Source: an uncultured Flavobacteriales bacterium (GTDB lineage Bacteria; Bacteroidota; Bacteroidia; Flavobacteriales_G; Salibacteraceae). From it: a stretch of DNA of 64,000 nucleotides. A program made the translations under genes and the position numbers. This document shows positions 10,826 through 50,555 of this stretch, one piece after another. Every line of letters begins with the position of its first letter. The stretch's first letter is position 1. The DNA lies in assembly GCA_905479105.1 (NCBI GenBank), contig CAJQLE010000002.1:248001-312000 (forward strand), given 5' to 3'. The notes beneath the pieces were generated by a model. That model was not told the DNA's origin, searched no databases, and saw nothing but the letters and a program-made list of their open reading frames with translations.

Positions 10826-12547
10826 GTGAAACAAATCTTTACGATAATTATCATTTCAGTTTTTTCTTTGAGCTCATCCGCCCAAACGATTGACATTCTA
10901 AGCACAATCAGCGCTAATCTCAATCAAAATAGTTGCTCACCAATGTCCTTTACGGTGTCGATTCTTCAAGGCTGCGCCAATTTTACTTATTTGGGCAATA
11001 GCTCATCCGTCTCCAACGACACCATCTATCTTAATATTGATTATAGTGGAAGCTTCATTTGTTTTGGTGCCCTATCTTATCCAACATATACAGTTTCCGT
11101 TCCCTCTTCACCTGCCAATACTTACGTAGTATATGCGAAGAGCTATGTAAATGGAGTGATAAGCGACATACACGTTGGGTTTCCGCTCACCGTTACCAAC
11201 ATAGGATGCTGCCCAGCAATCGCCCAAATTGGACTTAACCAAGATCCTGTGTGTTTCGGAGATACATTAGAAATGCAAAGCACAGGGGGCGGAGCAACGA
11301 GCCAAAATTGGTATGTGAATGGCTCGCTATTTTCCATCGATACGATTGCCTATCAACCCGCTAACTCTCCTACCCCTTATAATCTAGAACTGATTGTAAC
11401 TGATGGAACATGCAGCGACACGGCTACACAAACAATAAATGTTCAAATGCCGCCTTCAATAAACTTGGGCAACGACACTTCCATTTGTGATGGATCTGCT
11501 CTAATAAAAACAGTTTCAAACACCTATTCTCAATACATCTGGTCTGATAGTTCTATCACGAACAGTGGTGCAATTAGCTCTGCAGGAAGCCTTTCGGTCA
11601 CGGTGCAAGATGCGTTTGGTTGCGAAGGATCAGACACCATGTCTATATTATCACTCATAGACCTTACAAACGTCAGCTTATCCATGGATTCAGTCTCTTT
11701 TTGTCCAGGAGATAGCGTAGCGGTTACCGTTAGCTCAAACACACCCGGTGCTGGATTTTTGTGGAGCACTGGCGCACAAACACCCAGCATTTTCATCTCT
11801 TCAGGAGGTAACTATACGGTTACCGCTTCCGCGAACGATCTCTGTGCTAATGTAGACACAGTAGTTTCTGAGATCTTTGAGATAACACCCATTGACTTTA
11901 GTTTAGATTCAAATCTATGCCCTCCAAGAGCAGTTGAGGCAAACAACGATTACGTTTCCTACAGCTGGGACAATGACGCTAATAGTTTCGGAACAAGTGC
12001 TTCAGTGGATGAAACATTAACTTTAACGGTGATAGATGTTAATGGCTGCACCACCACTTCAAGCGTCTTTGTTGACGTTAATGATAATCCAGTGGTGGAC
12101 TTAGGAAATGATACAACTATATGTGCAAATGGAGGCTCTGTATTGCTTTCCTCGAATACAGGAAATGGACTCACTTTACTCTGGAATACTGGTGATACAA
12201 CTGCAAGCATTACTGCGAATGGTGCTGGCTCATATTCAATTCAAGTGACTGATGCTTTTGGATGCACAGGTTTTGATACGATTGTTGTTAGCGAAGTGCA
12301 ATGCCTCGGCATTAGCGAGCTAGGTGAAAAGCGATCATTCAGCGTTTTCCCAAATCCTGCGAAGTCTGAAATCTTTATTCGTTCAGAGTTAACTAATGAC
12401 TTCGAACTAATCGATGTAATTGGAAATGTTGTAAGAAGAATATTTGTGACAGAAAGATCTACAAACATGAATATTGAAAACCTGCCTTCCGGCATTTACA
12501 TTTTGAGAAACAACCTGAATCAATCTACAAGAATTATCAAGCAGTAA
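10826..12547 (+). CDS. Large secreted T9SS type A sorting-domain protein with repeated NLGNDTxIC modules
   Basis: GTG start, signal peptide MKQIFTIIIISVFSLSSSAQT; repeats NLGNDTSICDG / DLGNDTTICANG; C-term FSVFPNPAKSEIFI...LPSGIYILRNN. Confidence 0.8.
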   Translation: MKQIFTIIIISVFSLSSSAQTIDILSTISANLNQNSCSPMSFTVSILQGCANFTYLGNSSSVSNDTIYLNIDYSGSFICFGALSYPTYTVSVPSSPANTYVVYAKSYVNGVISDIHVGFPLTVTNIGCCPAIAQIGLNQDPVCFGDTLEMQSTGGGATSQNWYVNGSLFSIDTIAYQPANSPTPYNLELIVTDGTCSDTATQTINVQMPPSINLGNDTSICDGSALIKTVSNTYSQYIWSDSSITNSGAISSAGSLSVTVQDAFGCEGSDTMSILSLIDLTNVSLSMDSVSFCPGDSVAVTVSSNTPGAGFLWSTGAQTPSIFISSGGNYTVTASANDLCANVDTVVSEIFEITPIDFSLDSNLCPPRAVEANNDYVSYSWDNDANSFGTSASVDETLTLTVIDVNGCTTTSSVFVDVNDNPVVDLGNDTTICANGGSVLLSSNTGNGLTLLWNTGDTTASITANGAGSYSIQVTDAFGCTGFDTIVVSEVQCLGISELGEKRSFSVFPNPAKSEIFIRSELTNDFELIDVIGNVVRRIFVTERSTNMNIENLPSGIYILRNNLNQSTRIIKQ

Positions 12548-35978: not shown

Positions 35979-37826
35979 TTAGTTTTTGCCAAGTGCTCGA
36001 ATTCCTTCTATTACTCGAAACCTTGAATTTCCATCGATGCTGTAAACCCTTCTGTTTAGATAATTCTTTCTGGTCTCGGATATGTCTTTGGCGTTACCAT
36101 CAATCACACTTTTAACCGTCTCTTCCAACGTATTGTAATCCTCGCAATGCCTAGCAACACCGTCTTTAATGTAATTGGCAGAGTCAATTCCGTTGTAATC
36201 AACCACCAAAAGCTCTTTATTAAAATATAACGCTTCAGCTCCTGCTGTGCTGTAATACGTAATCATAATATCAGTCACGGCCAGTAATCCATACAAATCG
36301 TCAAACCTTATTTCTGGCTTCACTCCTACTTCCTTTGCTATGCCTTCAAAAAAGGACATATCATTTTTCTCATTGGGATGGGGTTTAATGATCACGCGAA
36401 GACTCGGATGGTTTTTTTGAAGCGTCAGAACATCCATTAACAATCGTTTTCTAATCTCCGGTTGATGATATATAGGCTGACTTGCGAAAAGCACTATTGT
36501 TTCTCCCTCCTTATAATCTGTCAGTATAGAAGATTTTGGTTGCTCGAGCAATGGTTTCACAACATCGGTTCTAACTTGTCCGACTACCTTGACTTTTCCT
36601 TCTGGATATGAAGACTGTTTGCATAATCTATCCAATACATAATCACCCCAGGTCATAGTGACATCCGGAAATGGATCGTATTTCACATCCTTCTCCAAAA
36701 ACGAATAATTCAAGTTAGATGAGCTGATTCCGCCATGTTGAAGACCAAATGATGGCACACCCAATTGCTTCGCAGCAGCAATCAAGGGATACTTCAAGAA
36801 TGTTAGTTCATCATCACCACCAATGGAGTGTGGTTTAAGCTTCTTGAGAATAGCTAGTCCCAAATCATATCTAAATGCAGACACAACAAGTAAATCCGAT
36901 GCTTTTAATAACTGATTAAGAATCATACTATCAAAACCCTGAGCATTCGTCAATGCCTCCGAAATATTTCTTTTAAGTCCATTTCGATATGAAAAAATCC
37001 TTTGAAGACGATTCACATTCAACAGACCTAAGCCTGCAAATGTCTCGTAAAACTGAAAATTAGCAATATTCTTAAATGGCTTAAGACAATCCTTAAACTT
37101 TGGCAAAGCAACTGCACCATAGTTCTTCAGCATCAATAGATTACTGAAGTCGCTCGATTCCTTCAACTCATCTTGCAGATAACCATAGTAAAAATCGCCA
37201 TCGATCAAACGAGTGCCATCAAGACTAAAAATCTTATGAGCAACAAAGGATGAATTGAGAAATATATGCTGCCCTTTTCGAATTGGTTTGAAAAGGCCCA
37301 AAAAGAACCTGGCTAAAAAAACTAAAGCATATTTAATGGGTTCTTTTTTAGCCCTTGGTCTTGAAACCGAATCACCAGAAATCACCTCAGCCCTGACCAA
37401 TGAGTTCAAAGCGCTGTGGCTAGAAAATATTTGAAGCTGTCCAGTATTTCCATGGTCTTTCTTAGCCAAGAAAAACCATCTGTATTCAACGTAAAGTTCA
37501 TGCAGATCTAGAAATAGCTTATTCCTGATCATGAACCAAGGATAAAACTGTTCACTATAGGAAGTAGTATCAATCAGCTTTGAATGTAACTCTGCAAATG
37601 ATTTATGACCAAACTCCAAAATCTCCTGCATGAACTCCGAAATCAATTCAGATTTAGAAGGTCCTTCAAACAATGCAGATGATATTCCTTGATCCTTTAA
37701 GCTTTCTTGAACTCTGCTTTCGAATGTTAGAACCTTGATGTCATTTCTAGCAAAAGCAGAGCGTACTTCAGCAATTTCAGTAGCATCCAAATCCCTAAAC
37801 ACAAACACGGTCAAAGTGGTTTTCAA
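35979..37826 (-). CDS. Predicted GT-B-like surface carbohydrate transferase
   Basis: 615 aa; LGVPSFGLQHGGISSSN, VIIKPHPNEKNDMS, DIMITYYSTAGAEALYFNKELLVVDY. Confidence 0.6.
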   Translation of the reverse strand: MKTTLTVFVFRDLDATEIAEVRSAFARNDIKVLTFESRVQESLKDQGISSALFEGPSKSELISEFMQEILEFGHKSFAELHSKLIDTTSYSEQFYPWFMIRNKLFLDLHELYVEYRWFFLAKKDHGNTGQLQIFSSHSALNSLVRAEVISGDSVSRPRAKKEPIKYALVFLARFFLGLFKPIRKGQHIFLNSSFVAHKIFSLDGTRLIDGDFYYGYLQDELKESSDFSNLLMLKNYGAVALPKFKDCLKPFKNIANFQFYETFAGLGLLNVNRLQRIFSYRNGLKRNISEALTNAQGFDSMILNQLLKASDLLVVSAFRYDLGLAILKKLKPHSIGGDDELTFLKYPLIAAAKQLGVPSFGLQHGGISSSNLNYSFLEKDVKYDPFPDVTMTWGDYVLDRLCKQSSYPEGKVKVVGQVRTDVVKPLLEQPKSSILTDYKEGETIVLFASQPIYHQPEIRKRLLMDVLTLQKNHPSLRVIIKPHPNEKNDMSFFEGIAKEVGVKPEIRFDDLYGLLAVTDIMITYYSTAGAEALYFNKELLVVDYNGIDSANYIKDGVARHCEDYNTLEETVKSVIDGNAKDISETRKNYLNRRVYSIDGNSRFRVIEGIRALGKN

Positions 37827-41490: not shown

Positions 41491-41684
41491 GTATTATCAG
41501 TGATTTTTAACTGACATTTTTTACGAGAATATTACACTTTCAATGCAAATACCTATCAACAAATCGAAGTGTTCACGCAGTCTATTATGTGCAATTTTAA
41601 GTTTTTTAAATCCTTCCTAATTATTTGGACTCCGTTTTAAATCATTATTTTGTCTGTGCATGTAGCTTTACCGATTTAAATAAG

Positions 41685-42428
41685 ATGATATTACCTAAAG
41701 TAAGTAACCAAGCATCTCCAGAAGATGTAGTTAAAGAATTAAACCGCAATGGTATTGTGGTTATCGAAGACTTCTGTCAAAATGTTGAATCCTTGAAAAA
41801 GGAAGGTCTCCGAATACTCGATGAAATGGGTGGCGCTTCTGAATATAAGTTTGGAAGATATGCAGCTTTGCGCACCCAGAAAGAAGTTGCGAAGCATCCG
41901 ATTTTGCATTCCTATTTCACGCAACCTTTTATCAAAGAGACCGCCACGGCCTTTATGGGAGAGAAGCACTATTTGTTAAATGCCCTCTACATCACCCAAG
42001 AATATAACGCAACTGAAGATCTTGCGAATAACGGACACCCTCATTTTGATCAAGATTGGTCATTTAAATTTTTCCTTTACTTGACCGATGTTGATGAGGA
42101 TAGCGGAGCGTTTAAATGCATCCCTGGCACTGCGCAAAAAGGAAAAGAACTTCGAGAAAAATCTCATAAAGAGGTGAAAAAGATTCCCAATATCAAAAAC
42201 AGAATACTTAGGGATTACGAAGATTTGGGATTCACGTTAGACGATTTCATCCCTGTTGAAGGGAAGGCAGGAACGCTAATCATTTTTGACAGCGACACCT
42301 TTCATTTTGGAGGTAACATTAAAGAAGGACGTGAGAGAATGGTTATGCGCTCTCACAATACCAAGGAATCATCCAATGATCTGCTCAGTAAAATGAAGAA
42401 AGCCTTCTCAGGATTAATCAATACGTGA
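41685..42428 (+). CDS. Phytanoyl-CoA dioxygenase-like Fe(II)/2OG oxygenase
   Basis: GHPHFDQDW (HxD), DEDSGAFKCIPGT, FDSDTFHFGG (distal His). Start placed at ATG 41685 (MILPKVSNQAS). Confidence 0.8.
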   Translation: MILPKVSNQASPEDVVKELNRNGIVVIEDFCQNVESLKKEGLRILDEMGGASEYKFGRYAALRTQKEVAKHPILHSYFTQPFIKETATAFMGEKHYLLNALYITQEYNATEDLANNGHPHFDQDWSFKFFLYLTDVDEDSGAFKCIPGTAQKGKELREKSHKEVKKIPNIKNRILRDYEDLGFTLDDFIPVEGKAGTLIIFDSDTFHFGGNIKEGRERMVMRSHNTKESSNDLLSKMKKAFSGLINT

Positions 42429-42438
42429 GCTGACAGTT

Positions 42439-43860
42439 CTATTTGAACGTTTCTTTGATTTCTTCAAATGCTTTTACAACACGATCGAAGTCAACACCAT
42501 CGATGGTAGGAAGATTTAATCCCTGACGCGAAAGCAATTTACTAGCATCAAGATTTCCGCTAACGTAAGTGGAATATATAGGCATATCACTTAGTTGGTA
42601 GAAAAATGGCCTCGCATCAACTCCATTATCCCTTAGCTGCTGAATAACTCCATCTCTATCAATGCCGTCTTCTAACAAAGCCGCAACTAACCATGTGACA
42701 CGTTTATTACCATCTATTTTTGGCTGCCATTTCACAAAACTAAAGTCAGCCAATACTGATTGATATTTACTTTCAATTTCTGCTCTACCTGCAATGATTT
42801 CATCTATTCTCTCCAATTGAGCACAACCAATTGCCGCCTGTAAGTTCGTCATCCGGTAATTATATCCGATATGCTCATGCCAGTAGCGTTTTTGTTTACT
42901 CATTCCATGATCTCTCAGGACCCTCATTCTATCATTCAGTTGGTCACTATTCGTTACGACCATCCCTCCTTCTCCTGTTGTAATAATTTTATTACCAAAA
43001 AAAGAAAATGTTGCGGCATGTCCGATTGAACCAACTTTTCTCCCCTTGTAAACTGCTCCATGAGCTTCTGCTGCATCTTCAACAACAAAGAGATTATGCT
43101 TTTCAGCTAACGCCATTATCGGATCCATATCACATGGTTGTCCATAAACATGAACTGGAATGATGGCTTTTGTTTTTGGTGTAATCGCCTTTTCAATTGC
43201 TTCAGGACTGATGCACCATGACACAGGGTCAACATCGACAATTACAGGCGTAGCGTTGGCATGTAAGACTGCATTAATCGTAGCCGCAAATGTCAAATCA
43301 GGAACGATAACCTCATCTCCTTCTCCGATTCCGAATGACTCTAACGCCAGATGAATGGCTACAGTTCCATTTGATACTGCAACACCATACTTCGCTCCGC
43401 AGTACTCTGAGAATTCAGATTCAAATCGATTAATGTAAGCGCCAGCACTAGAGATCCAAGTTGACAAAAAAGCATCCGTTAAATATTTGAACTCATTGCC
43501 ATTAAGCTTTGGTTCAGCAACCGGAATCATTTTAACCCTATGCTCATATCTAAAGTAATCTACTGGCTTTCCTTCGGTATCAATGATGGGGATTATCCGA
43601 ACCTTCTTATCCGTCTTTTTTAAGATGTCCTCGAGTTTCTCGCCTTGATTTGCGAAAACATAAGAACCCAAATCTTCTTGTGCAATTTGAGCGTTGAGAT
43701 CAACTCCATTGAGCAGCATTCTTCTAATATCCCCATCGGTGAGCACACCAATTAGTCGTTCTTGTTGATCTATTACAAAAGCCACTCCAGATGGCTCTTC
43801 ATTAATTGAAGTCAACACATCACGAACAGAGGAATTTATAACACAAATCGACCCTTTCAT
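42439..43860 (-). CDS. DegT/DnrJ/EryC1-type aminotransferase with N-terminal CBS-domain pair
   Basis: CBS: AFVIDQQERLIGVLTDGDIRRMLLNG; aminotransferase: VEDAAEAHGAVYKGRKVGSIGHAATFSFFGNKIITTGEGGM, GYNYRMTNLQAAIG. Confidence 0.9.
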   Translation of the reverse strand: MKGSICVINSSVRDVLTSINEEPSGVAFVIDQQERLIGVLTDGDIRRMLLNGVDLNAQIAQEDLGSYVFANQGEKLEDILKKTDKKVRIIPIIDTEGKPVDYFRYEHRVKMIPVAEPKLNGNEFKYLTDAFLSTWISSAGAYINRFESEFSEYCGAKYGVAVSNGTVAIHLALESFGIGEGDEVIVPDLTFAATINAVLHANATPVIVDVDPVSWCISPEAIEKAITPKTKAIIPVHVYGQPCDMDPIMALAEKHNLFVVEDAAEAHGAVYKGRKVGSIGHAATFSFFGNKIITTGEGGMVVTNSDQLNDRMRVLRDHGMSKQKRYWHEHIGYNYRMTNLQAAIGCAQLERIDEIIAGRAEIESKYQSVLADFSFVKWQPKIDGNKRVTWLVAALLEDGIDRDGVIQQLRDNGVDARPFFYQLSDMPIYSTYVSGNLDASKLLSRQGLNLPTIDGVDFDRVVKAFEEIKETFK

Positions 43861-44714
43861 CTCATCAAATCATTTATCAAATTATAACTACTCTTCAAAT
43901 CATCGAATGATGAATAAACTTCTAATGTAAAATCTCTGTCTTTCAGTTTGGATCCTTTCAGAAAACGAAATATTTCTGAGTTTGAATTTAACGTCCCATT
44001 GGAATCGGTTAGACCATCATTATCACTCAAGTGAATATAATCTGTCTGATCACACAATTGACTTGCTTGATCTTTAAAATCCAAGCCAAGTGAATTGCAA
44101 CTGACTTTCAGATGCGCCAAATCGATCAACGGAGTAAATCCATTCAAACGCTCTAGCTCAGTCATTGTTGAAGAATCAGTAAATAAAAATGGATTTACCT
44201 TATTGTATTCTTCAAAGTTTTGCAATGACAAAACGTTGTTTTCGACATAGGCCTTTACCCCACTTACCTCGGCTTCTTTCATTACATAATTGAAGTTTTC
44301 GGCAAACCTTTCAATTGCTTTCGATCGGTCAAAAAGAGAACGTCTTTTGACTTTCAATCCTATTTCTGACAATGGAATATCAAGCAAAAAGCCCGCATGA
44401 AAAGCATACTTATCAGCACCCAATGATTTTGATAATCTCAAAGCCTTAATTACATGGTCACGACTCATTTCAGATATTTCATCATTCAGTGAGGCCAAAT
44501 TCAGCACAAAATCCTTTTCTGGTGGTGGGAAGTAATTATGACACAATAAGTTGAGCTCATGCTTCTCCTTAAGTTCAAGTAGATTATTCTCTAAGTCGGG
44601 ATACAAAGTAGTTCCACCTGACAGTTCTATATTTTGAAATCCATTCTCAGCCAAAAACTTAACACTGTCCGAAATTTTCGGAAACTTGACGCATGAGCTT
44701 GAAACGTAAATCAT
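43857..44714 (-). CDS. TIM-barrel sugar phosphate isomerase/epimerase-like (AP endonuclease family 2)
   Basis: NGFQNIELSGG, LLCHNYFPPP, VKAYVENNV, LIDLAHLKVSC, YIHLSDNDGLTDSNGTL. Confidence 0.72.
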   Translation of the reverse strand: MIYVSSSCVKFPKISDSVKFLAENGFQNIELSGGTTLYPDLENNLLELKEKHELNLLCHNYFPPPEKDFVLNLASLNDEISEMSRDHVIKALRLSKSLGADKYAFHAGFLLDIPLSEIGLKVKRRSLFDRSKAIERFAENFNYVMKEAEVSGVKAYVENNVLSLQNFEEYNKVNPFLFTDSSTMTELERLNGFTPLIDLAHLKVSCNSLGLDFKDQASQLCDQTDYIHLSDNDGLTDSNGTLNSNSEIFRFLKGSKLKDRDFTLEVYSSFDDLKSSYNLINDLMR

Positions 44715-45319
44715 TTGATGCGTTTTACTGGATTACCAACGTACGTGCCTGGTTCTGAAATATCCTTAATAACCACAGCACCTGCACCAATTATAACATT
44801 ATCGCAGATGGAAATATAGTCTCGGATAAAGCTACCAGCTCCAATCATGCATGAATTGCCAATTTTCACTCTACCTGAAATGGTAGCATTGACTGAGATA
44901 TGACAATGATTACCAATGACACTTTCGTGCTCAATAACCGCGGCAGAATTGATAATGTTATTATCCCCAATTATTGCTTCTGCCCCAATTAAAGCTCTTG
45001 GCATTATTAAGTTCGCTTGTCCAAGTTTAGCACTTGAAGAGACTATAGCTGAAGCATGACTGACGGTTGTTTTCAAGACATTAGAAAGACTCCCGAAATA
45101 TTCCATTCGACTGTAATTATCACCAATAGCCAAAACACATTCACTTCCTTTAGGAACTAAACTCACAAACCCCTTTAAAGGAACCCCGACAATTTTTTCA
45201 TCCTGTCCTGAAAAAGAATCATCGTATACTCCCTCTACGTCAAAACCTTCATCCATTAGTAATTGCACCACTGCCCTTGAATGACCACCCGCTCCTATGA
45301 CTGATATTGATTTACGCAT
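44711..45319 (-). CDS. NeuD-like sugar O/N-acetyltransferase
   Basis: SISVIGAGGHSRAVVQLLMDEGFDVEGVYDD N-terminal domain and left-handed beta-helix hexapeptides (MIGAGSFIRDYISICDNVIIGAGAVVIKDI). Confidence 0.88.
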   Translation of the reverse strand: MRKSISVIGAGGHSRAVVQLLMDEGFDVEGVYDDSFSGQDEKIVGVPLKGFVSLVPKGSECVLAIGDNYSRMEYFGSLSNVLKTTVSHASAIVSSSAKLGQANLIMPRALIGAEAIIGDNNIINSAAVIEHESVIGNHCHISVNATISGRVKIGNSCMIGAGSFIRDYISICDNVIIGAGAVVIKDISEPGTYVGNPVKRIK

Positions 45320-46364
45320 CAATAATATCGTTGATGTTAAAATCTCTCTTGGCAATTGTTCCGACTAAATCTAAATACTTCATGGGAGAAATACCAACAC
45401 CGCCCGTGCGTTTGGCAACTAGATCCTCTTCCTTAATCAATGCCCCTGCTTTTATAGTTCGAGCTGCGACTAAATACTTTTGAAGCGACTTTCTTGTATG
45501 CATTTCTGAGTTTGTTGGTTTTTTTTCTGATGACCCCAGAAACAATTCAATCCTTCTTACTTCAAGCACAAACTCTTTAAGTTGAGCTGGATCGAGAGAT
45601 GCTCTATGATCAGGACCGTCCGCTAACTTATCTATCGTAAAATGCTTCTCAACCACTTTTGCTCCTTTTGCCACGGCATATGGTGCTGCTCCTAATCCTA
45701 CACTATGATCTGAATATCCAACAAGCCCGCCAAATTCTGCACCGTACGTATCCATCACATTCAAATTAGCTTCAGAATCTTCGATTGGATAATTGGCAGT
45801 GCATTGAAGAATTACGACATCCTTATTGAATTCGTGAATGGTTTGCATTGCACTCTTAACCTCATCCAAAAAAGACATACCAGTAGAGAGTAATATTGGT
45901 TTTCCTGTTAATGCAATTTTCTTGAGAAATGGAAGGTTAGTTGTATCTGTAGAAGCTACTTTATACGCCTCGACTCCAAGCTCTTCAAGCTGACCTAAGC
46001 TAAATTTATCGAATGGGGTAATCAGAAAAATAATTCCTTTTTGTTCGCAATAATCTTTGAGTTCCTGATACTGGTCCTTGCGCAATTCCAATTTCTTCAG
46101 CATGTTAAACTGAGATTCACTAGCTGAAGTTGTCTGCTGCTGGTAAGGGGCTTTTTCGACCGATTCGAGTATTAGATTTTCAGTCTTAAAAGCCTGAAAC
46201 TTCACTGCATCGGCACCGCTTTGAACAGCTATATCAATCAGCTCTTTTGCAAGATTCACATCACCTCCGTGATTCACACCTGCTTCCGCAATAATAAACG
46301 CAGGGTGATCATTTGAAATAACCTTATTACCTATTGTGATATGTTTTGAAAAAGAATACTTCAT
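45312..46364 (-). CDS. N-acetylneuraminate synthase family protein (canonical-looking NeuB) with C-terminal SAF domain
   Basis: FIIAEAGVNHGGDVNLAKELI, YSDHSVGLG, VEKHFTIDKLADGPDHRASLDPAQL; start set at MKYSFSKHITIGNKV. Confidence 0.9.
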   Translation of the reverse strand: MKYSFSKHITIGNKVISNDHPAFIIAEAGVNHGGDVNLAKELIDIAVQSGADAVKFQAFKTENLILESVEKAPYQQQTTSASESQFNMLKKLELRKDQYQELKDYCEQKGIIFLITPFDKFSLGQLEELGVEAYKVASTDTTNLPFLKKIALTGKPILLSTGMSFLDEVKSAMQTIHEFNKDVVILQCTANYPIEDSEANLNVMDTYGAEFGGLVGYSDHSVGLGAAPYAVAKGAKVVEKHFTIDKLADGPDHRASLDPAQLKEFVLEVRRIELFLGSSEKKPTNSEMHTRKSLQKYLVAARTIKAGALIKEEDLVAKRTGGVGISPMKYLDLVGTIAKRDFNINDIIDA

Positions 46365-46368
46365 GAAA

Positions 46369-47406
46369 CTATTGCTTAACAATTGAAAGGATAATGTTCT
46401 GATTTTCCTTAATGTCTGAATTAAGAATTTTTCCTTCAATTTTTGAAAATTCAATTGGGGGAAGTCCAGGGTTTTCGTTCCTCACGAATTTCACATCAGT
46501 CCTATGCAAAACAGACCCTTCGCTTAAATCTCGGTTAGCCACAATACTCTTTTTCTGAAACTTACGGTATTTCAAATCGCTTGCACTAAAGTCCTTTATT
46601 TTGCTTGTCCCAAATGCTCTGAACGCCATTTGAACGTCATTTACGTACTGCTCAAATTCCTTTGGTTCCAATGCTGCCTGATAATCAATCCCTTTTTCCG
46701 AACGATCTAGGGTTATGTGCTTTTCTAAAACTGACGCACCCAAACCGATTGCCACTAAATCTGCCTTTAAACTAAACTCAGAACCACCTTCGGTATGATC
46801 AGCATAGCCTACCTCATAATCTGGAAAAACACTTCTTAAAAGATTAATTCTGCTGATATTAAGATCGTCAATGCCTGTTGGGAAGTTCTGAACGCCATGC
46901 ATTAAAATAATATTCTCCGCCCCGTTTTCCTCCAATGTTGCTATTCCTCGGGCAATTTCCTCCATGGTAGACGCCCCAGTGCCTAGAGTCAGCGGAATTC
47001 CAGATTTCGCCACCTCGATAAGTACCTCAGGGTTAGACAAATCAGATGAATTCAGTTTAATTCCATCTGCACCCAAAGATGCAGCTAGCTTAACACTCGG
47101 CACATCATATGTGCAGACAAAAACTTGAATTCCCTTTTGCTTACCGAAATCGAATAACTCTTTCCATTGAGCATCTGAAAATGCAATATCACATAAGATT
47201 GTATAAGCTTCATGACTTGGAGTAACCGTTTCATCTGGTACAAAAAATTGTAGTTGAACAGCATCTGCATTTGCCTTTACAGAAGCTTCAATAAGTGCTT
47301 TCGCCTTATCAAAACTTCCATCGTGCGCGCAAGCCATTTCTGCAATTACGAAAGGCGAATTTGTTCCACCCAGGATTCGATTACCGAATTGAGATTTAAT
47401 TGGCAT
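46369..47406 (-). CDS. Divergent NeuB family protein with C-terminal SAF domain
   Basis: FVIAEMACAHDGSFDKAKALI, VGYADHTEGG, LEKHITLDRSEKGIDYQAALEP. Confidence 0.85.
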   Translation of the reverse strand: MPIKSQFGNRILGGTNSPFVIAEMACAHDGSFDKAKALIEASVKANADAVQLQFFVPDETVTPSHEAYTILCDIAFSDAQWKELFDFGKQKGIQVFVCTYDVPSVKLAASLGADGIKLNSSDLSNPEVLIEVAKSGIPLTLGTGASTMEEIARGIATLEENGAENIILMHGVQNFPTGIDDLNISRINLLRSVFPDYEVGYADHTEGGSEFSLKADLVAIGLGASVLEKHITLDRSEKGIDYQAALEPKEFEQYVNDVQMAFRAFGTSKIKDFSASDLKYRKFQKKSIVANRDLSEGSVLHRTDVKFVRNENPGLPPIEFSKIEGKILNSDIKENQNIILSIVKQ

Positions 47407-47408
47407 CA

Positions 47409-48326
47409 TTATACCCAAGAGTTTTTTTTCAAAATTTCTTTTAAAACTGCCACTTCGTTAGGTGTTGTCTGTTTCATTGGCTTACGTTCAAAAGGCTGCA
47501 TATGATCTGTAATTGAAAGCATAGCCTTAAGGGCTGGATGCCATCCCATGGGGACAGTTGCTTGAAACAAGGGCAATTCAAGACCTTCAACGATTGATTC
47601 AGCTTTTGCATTATCACCGTTCATCATTGCGGCAAAAAACTCAAGTTCCAAAGACGGAACGAAGTTTCCAATACCACCTAAATATGCTTTTGCACCGCGT
47701 TGTTTGTCGCGTTTTAAATACCTGCTCATTCCTCCACCAGCGCCAATAATAATAGCTTTATCAGCAAGATTCTCCACCAACATATTGCTGTATTCTGGAT
47801 CTAGCGCTTCTTCTTTAACACCGCAAATTTTGTCCATGGACATTAATTTGGTCAAAAGCTCAAGAGAATACTGAACTGTTCCAGGACCCAAACCATTTCT
47901 CATCGGCATCTCATGGATCAAGATATTGCATGATGAATTATCAATTATTGATTGAAAGAATTCAATGATGTAATCATCACCATAATGACGTTCAGGATAA
48001 TAAGCCAGTAAATAATCTGCTCCTATTTCATCAACGTGCTTTGCAAAATCAATTGCTGATTTAGTGCCTCCAGTAGTAGGATTAGCGACAATACTAATGG
48101 CCTTTCCTGCCGCAGCTTGAGCAACCACTCTATTGACGTTTTTACATTCTTCTGTCGACAATAAATTATATCGACTTGTGCCCACAGTAGTCATCACATT
48201 TTTAATGCCTGCATCAACTAAAAAGTGTGTGTATTTTTCCAATGCGGCATAATCCACATTTTGATTTTTATCGAATGGCACTGGTATTGGAATAACCGGC
48301 CCCGTAATTTTATTCAAGTCTTTCAT
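47409..48326 (-). CDS. Dihydrodipicolinate synthase/N-acetylneuraminate lyase family protein with altered motifs
   Basis: GPVIPIPVPFDKNQNVDYAAL; CGVKEEALDPEYSN (Schiff-base Lys); IHEMPMRNGLG; VGTSRYNLL. Confidence 0.85.
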   Translation of the reverse strand: MKDLNKITGPVIPIPVPFDKNQNVDYAALEKYTHFLVDAGIKNVMTTVGTSRYNLLSTEECKNVNRVVAQAAAGKAISIVANPTTGGTKSAIDFAKHVDEIGADYLLAYYPERHYGDDYIIEFFQSIIDNSSCNILIHEMPMRNGLGPGTVQYSLELLTKLMSMDKICGVKEEALDPEYSNMLVENLADKAIIIGAGGGMSRYLKRDKQRGAKAYLGGIGNFVPSLELEFFAAMMNGDNAKAESIVEGLELPLFQATVPMGWHPALKAMLSITDHMQPFERKPMKQTTPNEVAVLKEILKKNSWV

Positions 48327-49021
48327 TCTTGTTCTGAAATTTGTTTTGCTATAATCTCTGCAATTTGAAATTGATAAGGGTAATCGATATCGAATGACCT
48401 CAGTTGAGGCATTTCGTAGTACAACATTTTTTCATTGAAAAAAGTACCCCTGCGCTTAAACGCTTTAATTGATGCCAGATAAATTGCTCCATTCGGATGA
48501 TACTTCTTTTCTATGTTTTGACTTCTTGTGGTCAAATAACCATCCGTATTTTCCATTTCGACCACCTTTCCATCCCTCTTTTTTAGGGCAAGTTGAATAG
48601 GGAACTCATATTCTACTACTCCTATCAGGAACTCATTTTCTTTATTCTCGAAAAACAAATTGGCAGCTGACTGGACATCTTCAGCCGTTCGAAATGGACA
48701 AGTAGGCAACAACGCTGCAATATTGTCAAATTCGTTTTCTGCGTTGGTTCTCTCCAAATACTCTTTAACCACCTGCACTTTTGTGACTTTATCGCCCGCC
48801 ATTTCCATTGGTCGTGCATCAACTTCTACGCCTTCTGAGATCGCGACTTGGGCTATTTCATCATCTTCTGTCGACACCACAATCTTATCAAAAACACCTG
48901 AATGCTTAGCACTGCGTATGGTGTAGGCAATTAAAGGGATACCGTTTAGAGGTAAAACGTTTTTTCTTGGAATTCTCTTTGATCCTCCGCGAGCGGGGAT
49001 TATGCAGAGTGTTTTATTCAT
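48323..49021 (-). CDS. Acylneuraminate (CMP-nonulosonate) cytidylyltransferase
   Basis: LCIIPARGGSKRIPRKNVLPLNGIPLIAYTI, VVSTEDDEIAQVA, LPTCPFRTAEDV, SFDIDYPYQFQIAE. Confidence 0.93.
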   Translation of the reverse strand: MNKTLCIIPARGGSKRIPRKNVLPLNGIPLIAYTIRSAKHSGVFDKIVVSTEDDEIAQVAISEGVEVDARPMEMAGDKVTKVQVVKEYLERTNAENEFDNIAALLPTCPFRTAEDVQSAANLFFENKENEFLIGVVEYEFPIQLALKKRDGKVVEMENTDGYLTTRSQNIEKKYHPNGAIYLASIKAFKRRGTFFNEKMLYYEMPQLRSFDIDYPYQFQIAEIIAKQISEQE

Positions 49022-49041: not shown

Positions 49042-49049
49042 CAAATATA
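49042..49049 (-). promoter_or_regulatory. Putative -7 element TATATTTG upstream of the nonulosonate-like operon
   Basis: Exact TAnnTTTG on the minus strand, about 20 nt upstream of the first gene's ATG. Confidence 0.45.
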
Positions 49050-49160
49050 ATTCTAATAAACAGCTCTAACTTATGCTCAAAAGCCTAATATCAAATGCGC
49101 GAAAATTGATTGAATAACTCTGAAGAATAAGAATTTAATTTGCACTTTGGTCGAAGAACT

Positions 49161-50555
49161 ATGAGCGAATTAGAAAAGGTTATTACAGAGGGCGGGGATG
49201 AACGCATAGAGTTGAAAGAGAATGGGTTGAACAAATATTTTGTTGATCCGAGAACTTCAAAAGGTCACTTAAACCGTGGATCTTGCACGTGTTCTGCACT
49301 ATCCGTTGATGTCAGAACAAAAGTCAGCACTGTATATAATCGCCTTATAACCAACGAAGTATCTGTAGAAGATATTCGAATTAAGCAGCGGTTTCGAATC
49401 AAAGCCCTATTGCAAGATTCTTACACAGACGATTTCAACATTTTCTTCGCGCCATCAGGAAGTGACTTGTGCTACTTCCCTTTGATGTTTTCTCAAATAA
49501 AGAATCCTAATAAGCCAATACTAAGTCTCATCACATGTCCTGAGGAATTAGGAACGGGCTCAATACTTGCGAATACTGGTAAATTCTTTTCAGATAAAAC
49601 TCAAATTGAGAAAAGTGTAAACAAAGGCGCTCCGCTAAAAGCTGACCTGCACGTTGACTCAATACTGTTCCCTGCGAGAAATGAAGATGGGTCAATAATT
49701 GACCACAAACAGGCAATTTATGATGCAATTGATGAACATCGAGACACCCATCAAATCATTGTAAACCTAGTGATAGGAAGTAAAAGCGGTATTGAAGACA
49801 ATATTTCCATCATTACAGATGGTCCTGCTGATGTAACGTGGGTAGTTGATTTATGTCAAATGCGCGCTACACCTAAGCTTTTCAATGAGTTGCTAGCTAA
49901 GAATTGTCTTTTAATGATTACAGGGTCGAAGTTTTATCAAAGCCCGCCATTCTGCGGTGCATTGTTGGTTCCAGAGCGCTATGCTAAAGAGATAGAGCAT
50001 GGAGATATTGATAGCTCGCTGGTTGAAGGATTTGATAAAATATATTCAAAATTTGATATCCCACCTTCTTATAAAGGGTTACGTACTAAATTCCCCAGTT
50101 TTGAGAATATAGGATTTACACTGCGATGGGAGGCGGCAATATGTGAGTCGGAATTACTTGCAAATTATAGTGAACGAGATGCAACCTATGCAATCAGCAA
50201 TTGGAATAAGCACGTTAAAGAATACTTGGAAACAAAAGAACTCTTTAACATAATGGTAGATCAAGATGTAACGAATAGATCCATCATTTCTTTTAAAATC
50301 GCAAAAAATGGGCAGACGCTTACGAACGATCAGCTCAAAAAGGTTTATGAACATTTATGCCTTCATGGAAGTAAGTATTTCCCTAAATATGAGCGGCTTT
50401 CTACCGGGCAGCCCGTCACCTATGAGTCGTATTCATTCTTGCGAGTAGCATTGGGATCAACCAATATTAGAAAGCTCATTGAAGAGAATCACGACCTTTC
50501 TGATGACTTTAAACTCATTGATGTAATCGAGCAAATTACTAATGAACTCTGCTGA
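49161..50555 (+). CDS. Predicted PLP-dependent fold-type I enzyme of unassigned family
   Basis: FFAPSGSDLCYFPL, WVVDLCQMRATPKLF (pyridine-N Asp), LMITGSKFYQSPPFCGALLVP (candidate Schiff-base Lys). Confidence 0.6.
   Translation: MSELEKVITEGGDERIELKENGLNKYFVDPRTSKGHLNRGSCTCSALSVDVRTKVSTVYNRLITNEVSVEDIRIKQRFRIKALLQDSYTDDFNIFFAPSGSDLCYFPLMFSQIKNPNKPILSLITCPEELGTGSILANTGKFFSDKTQIEKSVNKGAPLKADLHVDSILFPARNEDGSIIDHKQAIYDAIDEHRDTHQIIVNLVIGSKSGIEDNISIITDGPADVTWVVDLCQMRATPKLFNELLAKNCLLMITGSKFYQSPPFCGALLVPERYAKEIEHGDIDSSLVEGFDKIYSKFDIPPSYKGLRTKFPSFENIGFTLRWEAAICESELLANYSERDATYAISNWNKHVKEYLETKELFNIMVDQDVTNRSIISFKIAKNGQTLTNDQLKKVYEHLCLHGSKYFPKYERLSTGQPVTYESYSFLRVALGSTNIRKLIEENHDLSDDFKLIDVIEQITNELC

Follow-up and report, generated by a model that had tools for sequence, protein, structure and literature searches.

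A perosamine-based route to a nonulosonic acid predicted for a seven-gene cluster in an uncultured Flavobacteriales bacterium

A 64,000-nucleotide stretch of DNA from an uncultured Flavobacteriales bacterium (GenBank assembly GCA_905479105.1, contig CAJQLE010000002.1, positions 248,001 to 312,000; hereafter the window) contains, at 42439-49021 on the minus strand, seven tightly coupled genes that we predict to make a cytidine monophosphate (CMP)-activated nonulosonic acid (NulO) from guanosine diphosphate (GDP)-mannose by way of perosamine; we assign this reading a probability of about 0.68. A check of the open reading frames (ORFs) together with domain searches bore out the number, strand, order and family assignments of the genes given in an earlier, sequence-only reading of the cluster; the domains are CTP_transf_3, DHDPS, NeuB plus SAF in two genes, PglD_N/Hexapep of the NeuD type, AP_endonuc_2, and CBS plus DegT. 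We refer to the genes by letter in the order A-B-C-D-E-F-G:

48323..49021, minus strand: A, CMP-ulosonate cytidylyltransferase, PseF/NeuA-like (CTP_transf_3, 1.1e-24)
47409..48326, minus strand: B, DHDPS/NAL-fold protein with the Schiff-base Lys but with His in place of the catalytic Tyr (DHDPS, 4.3e-28)
46369..47409, minus strand: C, divergent NeuB-like synthase, NeuB1 (NeuB, 8.2e-50, plus SAF)
45312..46364, minus strand: D, NeuB2, ulosonate synthase (TIGR03569, 404.6 bits, cut-off 399.65)
44711..45319, minus strand: E, NeuD/PglD/PerB-type N-acetyltransferase (TIGR03570, 187.7 bits, over the cut-off)
43857..44714, minus strand: F, TIM barrel of the Endo IV/sugar-isomerase superfamily, proposed GDP-sugar hydrolase (AP_endonuc_2, 3.2e-16)
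42439..43860, minus strand: G, fusion of CBS and a perosamine-synthetase-like DegT aminotransferase (DegT, 7.9e-125; CBS)

According to the proposed route, GDP-mannose 4,6-dehydratase (GMD), present here as a housekeeping copy and in relatives as a copy within the operon, would convert GDP-mannose to GDP-4-keto-6-deoxymannose, which G would aminate at C4 to give GDP-perosamine. E, or the formyltransferase or GNAT found in its place in relatives, would then acylate the amine to give GDP-N-acylperosamine, from which F would free N-acylperosamine for condensation with phosphoenolpyruvate (PEP) by D and CMP activation of the resulting acid by A. The route would need no 2-epimerase, because mannose already has the required C2 (D-manno) configuration. 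The expected product is 7-acylamido-3,7,9-trideoxy-D-glycero-D-galacto-non-2-ulosonic acid, a legionaminic-like acid with a hydroxyl instead of an acylamino group at C5; we derived its stereochemical name and masses by hand, taking the proposed substrate as the starting point.

Pathway genes in the host genome and in related loci

The host genome (2.79 Mb, 99.85% complete; its named relatives are Bacteroidota) contains no NeuC, and its only two Epimerase_2 proteins are both of the WecB type; the absence of a NeuC-type epimerase, first remarked in the cluster, thus holds genome-wide. The reported absence of a 4,6-dehydratase holds for the cluster and fails for the genome, which encodes GMD on another contig (C3:407380-408399). 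No LegB in the genome reaches the TIGR04180 cut-off (best 157 of 475 bits), and the PseI cut-off of 340.25 is reached by neither D (235.5 bits) nor C (194.7 bits); with no PseI, PseB and PseG could not complete the pathway to pseudaminic acid (Pse). Besides C and D, the genome has one weak, partial NeuB-family match on contig C3 (25.9 bits) and no third clear NeuB. Because NeuC, a LegB over the cut-off and a third clear NeuB are all missing, a complete canonical neuraminic (Neu), legionaminic (Leg) or Pse route encoded elsewhere is ruled out. The sequence-only reading had suggested a different route or a different 3-deoxy-ulosonic acid; the route is indeed not the canonical Neu, Leg or Pse one, and another acid is likely. 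On our best reading, GDP-mannose chemistry would replace the missing dehydratase and epimerase.

The aminotransferase points to this substrate. The best relatives of G in the Protein Data Bank (PDB) are structures of Caulobacter perosamine synthetase (3dr7/3bn1, 380 bits), and the window protein is 49.6% identical to Caulobacter PerA. Across G-type proteins the identity to the Caulobacter enzyme is 43-51%, as against 30-40% for LegC proteins of the same order. In a phylogenetic tree, a branch with support of 100/99 separates the 16 LegC rows, together with L111-L113 (L-numbers denote loci in relatives' genomes), from the 18 G proteins and Caulobacter PerA; PerA may fall either within or beside the G set. 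The PDB relatives of E include PglD-type enzymes (96 bits), VioB (85) and perosamine N-acetyltransferase (83).

A scan with C recovered 17 loci, all in uncultured genomes, whose hosts include Bacteroidota (among them a Kapaibacterium), Desulfovibrionaceae, alpha- and gammaproteobacteria, and Pelagibacteraceae. Since the gene set recurs in several phyla at roughly 40-65% protein identity, it is more than a chance association. Gene tables of these loci resolve into two blocks, one of A, B and C, mostly with a PhyH-like gene, and one of D, an N-acyltransferase, F and G; the blocks lie apart in L064, and the second precedes the first in L062. The acyltransferase slot is filled by NeuD in most loci, by a formyltransferase in L053, L056 and L061, and by a GNAT in L062 and L064, as expected if an amine is acylated.

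Other relatives carry a core of cytidylyltransferase, NeuB, acyltransferase, TIM barrel and aminotransferase without B and C. L096 and L097, from the same genus, have A-D-E-F-G beside the flanking genes of the window, and L099 has the identical core gene set in a different order. GMD lies within the operon in L102 (GMD-D-NeuD-F-G-A), L108 (GMD-D-GNAT-F-G-A) and L107 (D, a GNAT-F fusion, G, GMD and A), which belong to three distant Bacteroidota genomes of different genera. L130, one of the loci with B and C, has GMD on the same strand upstream of the genes D-GNAT-F-G-A-B-C, with two other genes between GMD and D. The lyase-like gene and the first NeuB, which the sequence-only reading counted among the genes that may define the route, do not form the core of the difference, as L096, L097, L099, L102, L107 and L108 run the operon without them. 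NeuC or LegG is found in none of the clusters that contain F, and NeuC exceeds its cut-off in 2 of 18 C-carrying genomes.

Near residue 132, NeuB-type enzymes carry Gly in the Neu and Leg pathways and Phe in the Pse pathway, and this position is reported to determine specificity at C2 (PMC7371886). Where NeuB of N. meningitidis and two Leg controls have SGE in our alignment, D proteins have STD, SGQ, SLH, SIH or SSD, with STD in the window; as judged against these two Leg controls only, the loss of SGE fits a different C2 or C4 environment. A scores 188 bits against the PseF model TIGR03584, below the cut-off of 205.7, and its best PDB relatives are NeuA enzymes. The A tree splits loci with B and C, together with L096 and L097, from core and Leg rows (support 99/98). 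Unlike the A tree, the D tree intermixes the rows from either side of this split; the type of cytidylyltransferase goes with B and C.

The TIM-barrel protein, rival readings and known pathways

F is rare and pathway-specific: it occurs in 3 of 396 genomes of the phylum Bacteroidota and 1 of 399 Pseudomonadota genomes (centre genomes counted), each time beside a D-type NeuB. Its AlphaFold model has a pLDDT (predicted local distance difference test score) of 95.4. A sequence search against the PDB returned one uncharacterised archaeal protein followed by weak matches to Endo IV, and a fold search placed F nearest to MJ1311, D-tagatose 3-epimerases and Endo IV; as both classes were returned, the fold search was discarded as a means of telling a hydrolase from an epimerase. 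We compared F with E. coli Nfo at nine positions that we take to be its metal ligands, the residue identities of which were confirmed in the Nfo sequence. His106, Glu158, Asp198, His201, His228, Asp237 and Glu265 of F correspond to H109, E145, D179, H182, H216, D229 and E261 of Nfo, the last part of this alignment being of low confidence and based on motif reading. His59 of F sits at the end of strand 3 and does not align with Nfo H69. F probably frees the sugar from GDP; a hydrolase is favoured because GDP release is the sole step otherwise without an enzyme. A housekeeping hydrolase could possibly perform this step instead.

Several observations weigh against the perosamine route. The GMD of the window genome sits outside the cluster, and GMD is present in 36 of 42 genomes of the order, such that its mere presence proves nothing; we dropped co-presence as a test and counted only operon position. 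G also reaches 373 bits against the LegC model TIGR04181 (cut-off 420). The fold of F is no closer to Endo IV than to epimerases, Nfo H231 corresponds to Asn239 in F, and Nfo H69 has no aligned counterpart. The upstream route differs in two relatives: L052 has a CBS-nucleotide-sugar dehydrogenase, a short-chain dehydrogenase/reductase and a PseC-like DegT in place of G, and L059 has a similar CBS-nucleotide-sugar dehydrogenase. Finally, the route does not account for B and C.

The route has two rivals. Were the cluster a legionaminic variant, G would be a LegC acting on a 2-acetamido-4-keto sugar from a dehydratase encoded elsewhere, and F a non-homologous 2-epimerase replacing LegG/NeuC. The LegC score of G, the position of D above its NeuB equivalog cut-off and the many sugar epimerases among the folds near F are in keeping with this idea, but G falls outside the LegC clade and near PerA, the genome has no LegB over the cut-off, operons of relatives hold GMD and not LegB, D lacks the SGE motif, and F has additional Endo IV-like ligands; we consider the variant quite unlikely. 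Perosamine polymers are common, and the resemblance of G and E to PerA and PerB would also suit an arrangement in which the GDP-N-acetylperosamine produced by G, E and GMD is the ordinary precursor of a polysaccharide, with the neighbouring NeuB and A belonging to an unrelated sialic acid pathway. This seems very improbable to us, given that D, the acyltransferase, F, G and A are linked in distant genomes as interleaved and overlapping genes, and that D, with no NeuC, would be left without its usual substrate.

The perosamine route would share steps with several known pathways. Those to Neu, Leg and Pse begin at an N-acetylglucosamine (GlcNAc) nucleotide, and the Neu and Leg pathways need a 2-epimerase. 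Leg pathways are GDP-linked in Campylobacter and linked to uridine diphosphate (Sps) in Bacillus subtilis, both starting from GlcNAc (PMC7439481). Common to the Leg pathway and the proposed one are a nucleoside diphosphate-4-keto-6-deoxy sugar, a DegT aminotransferase, an N-acyltransferase, nucleotide release, NeuB-type condensation and CMP activation, and a NeuB/LegI-type synthase (D, over TIGR03569) and a CMP-synthetase (A, CTP_transf_3) are present. Leg-type clusters in the same order (L103 and L115, with LegC) also encode CBS-containing PtmE-like proteins, together with NeuC-like genes. The present cluster differs in that it would start at GDP-mannose via GMD and not at a GlcNAc nucleotide, lacks LegB and a hydrolysing 2-epimerase, has the TIM-barrel F instead, and is expected to leave a hydroxyl at C5. 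With the pathway to Neu5Ac (NeuC, NeuB and NeuA) it shares the NeuB and CMP-synthetase steps and a NeuD-like protein, but the genome has no NeuC and the substrate is probably not ManNAc. GMD, a PerA-like aminotransferase and a PglD/PerB-type acetyltransferase or formyltransferase are shared with the GDP-perosamine pathway (GMD, PerA and PerB in Caulobacter, and an N-formyl form in Brucella), in which GDP-perosamine serves as a glycosyl donor, whereas in the proposed route the sugar would be released from GDP and lengthened with PEP. Kdn synthesis from mannose gives a precedent for a 2-hydroxy D-manno substrate of a NeuB-type enzyme with no epimerase; the proposed substrate here is 4-acylamino-4,6-dideoxymannose, not mannose or mannose 6-phosphate.

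The open-licence literature, in which a report from a subscription journal could be missed, yielded no link between perosamine and nonulosonic acids, and nothing usable on the ligands of endonuclease IV or on a 7-amino 9-deoxy NulO. If true, the route would connect two familiar pathways of sugar metabolism, account for NeuB clusters that lack NeuC and that annotation pipelines would label as sialic or legionaminic acid clusters, and assign a role to a family of TIM-barrel proteins that has no functional name. The definite new sugar that it predicts (C11H19NO8, 293.111 Da) could be sought as a DMB derivative of about m/z 410.16 by laboratories already equipped for high-performance liquid chromatography and mass spectrometry of 1,2-diamino-4,5-methylenedioxybenzene derivatives (DMB-HPLC/MS).

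The B and C genes

At every locus whose flank can be seen, C is accompanied by B and has another NeuB nearby. In alignments of B, K171, the Schiff-base residue, is invariant and H138 nearly so; the protein retains this Lys but departs from the N-acetylneuraminate lyase signature in that a His takes the place of the catalytic Tyr. The score of C is well short of the equivalog cut-offs for both NeuB and PseI. All 16 members have Gln at the position of Lys53 of N. meningitidis NeuB, and further changes are Gln for Asn184, Phe for Tyr186, and Ala or His for Ser213 in the same numbering. A role for Lys53 was not found in the open-licence literature. C keeps Glu25, Gln55, Thr110, Lys129, His215, Glu234, Phe288 and Arg314, which are most of the published catalytic residues, and we rejected on this ground the idea that it is a dead partner of D. 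When the C model was searched against the phylum, the window protein scored 560 bits and all others at most 232, with the window's own D at 214; these matches score at the level of D-type NeuB and none was counted as a C orthologue. A frame joining an alpha-2-macroglobulin-like gene to a C gene (L060:6221-10723) is probably an assembly chimera and was not used.

A PhyH-like gene occurs at most loci with B and C (the window, L051, L052, L053, L054, L058, L061, L063, L064 and L065), while among core-only loci a similar-looking gene is seen in L099 only; this dioxygenase may be part of the B and C chemistry. In the window it is the convergent neighbour of the operon:

41625..42428, plus strand: PhyH-like dioxygenase (PF05721, 6.6e-12)

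B and C form a separable add-on block, the product of which is probably either another variant of the sugar or an additional ulosonic acid. Two accounts of this block are compatible with the perosamine route. One, which is possible and which we hold tentatively, is that the locus makes two ulosonic acids: D-E-F-G would supply the perosamine-derived acid and B and C a second one from another aldose, with A serving one or both. The separability of A-B-C from D-acyltransferase-F-G (L062, L064 and L065) agrees with this, as does the way in which the type of A, and not that of D, tracks B and C; most loci, however, have only one cytidylyltransferase beside the block, and the proximity of C to another NeuB would also fit sequential action. 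Such sequential action, with the product of D altered by B and C before it reaches A, for example by re-forming or changing C1-C4 through aldol or dehydration chemistry, is a possibility that we rate slightly lower. Both folds bind alpha-keto acids, the substitutions in B and C listed above would suit altered chemistry, and the pair occurs with two upstream routes (L052 and L059 as against the rest), but C, with most catalytic residues retained, may be a plain second PEP synthase. The broadest claim, namely a new class of GDP-perosamine-derived NulO, a new Endo IV-fold nucleotide-sugar hydrolase, and further, non-textbook reactions performed by the NeuB-fold and lyase-fold pair of the window, is on the whole unlikely to hold in full.

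An MBOAT-like acyltransferase directly follows C in L047, L049, L050 and L054, and so separates C from D at those loci where D can be seen, and in L047 and L054 a second gene follows the inserted one. The kind of CBS domain fused to the aminotransferase in the window (42439-43860) is shared by the dehydrogenase fusions of L052 (13626-15290) and L059 (2813-4963); the domain is thus found on different enzymes and perhaps acts as a feedback sensor.

Operon layout, promoter and flanking genes

The sequence-only reading gave the 4-nt overlaps at 48323-48326, 44711-44714 and 43857-43860 exactly. Of the other junctions, that of B with C is a single shared base (TAATG at 47409), 4 nt (46365-46368) lie between C and D, and the 8 nt at 45312-45319 belong to both D and E. 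The mechanically called ORF starts of C, D and E are too early, and the likely ATG codons lie at 47409, 46364 and 45319, respectively. The TAnnTTTG motif claimed upstream is likewise present as an exact copy, which precedes the first ATG by about 20 nt. The window contains 30 occurrences of this motif, under half of the 67 expected from shuffles; because of this depletion, which would be expected of an active promoter element, the exact upstream copy is more telling than usual. This motif and a candidate glycosyltransferase are the remaining features of interest:

49042..49049, minus strand: TAnnTTTG motif (TATATTTG), candidate -7 promoter element of the operon
35979..37826, minus strand: candidate glycosyltransferase of 615 aa, with a weak match to the putative glycosyltransferase family DUF6716

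A homolog of the candidate glycosyltransferase lies directly upstream of A in L096 and L097. The other flank encodes a 471-aa protein without a Pfam or NCBIfam match (49140-50555), which adjoins a diaminopimelate-decarboxylase-like gene and, at the edge of a variable sugar locus, is 88-89% conserved in L096 and L097. A family of proteins of about 500 aa follows the clusters in L054, L057, L058, L061, L062, L064 and L100; the one member scanned, that of L057, has no Pfam match, and the family is a candidate for a new ulosonic acid transferase. Directly after B, C and A in L065, from a member of the Pelagibacteraceae (SAR11 group), lies a gene of the GT29 sialyltransferase type (11681-12358; PF00777, 2.1e-24), which suggests that this abundant group of marine bacteria has an enzyme resembling sialyltransferases that acts on the sugar.

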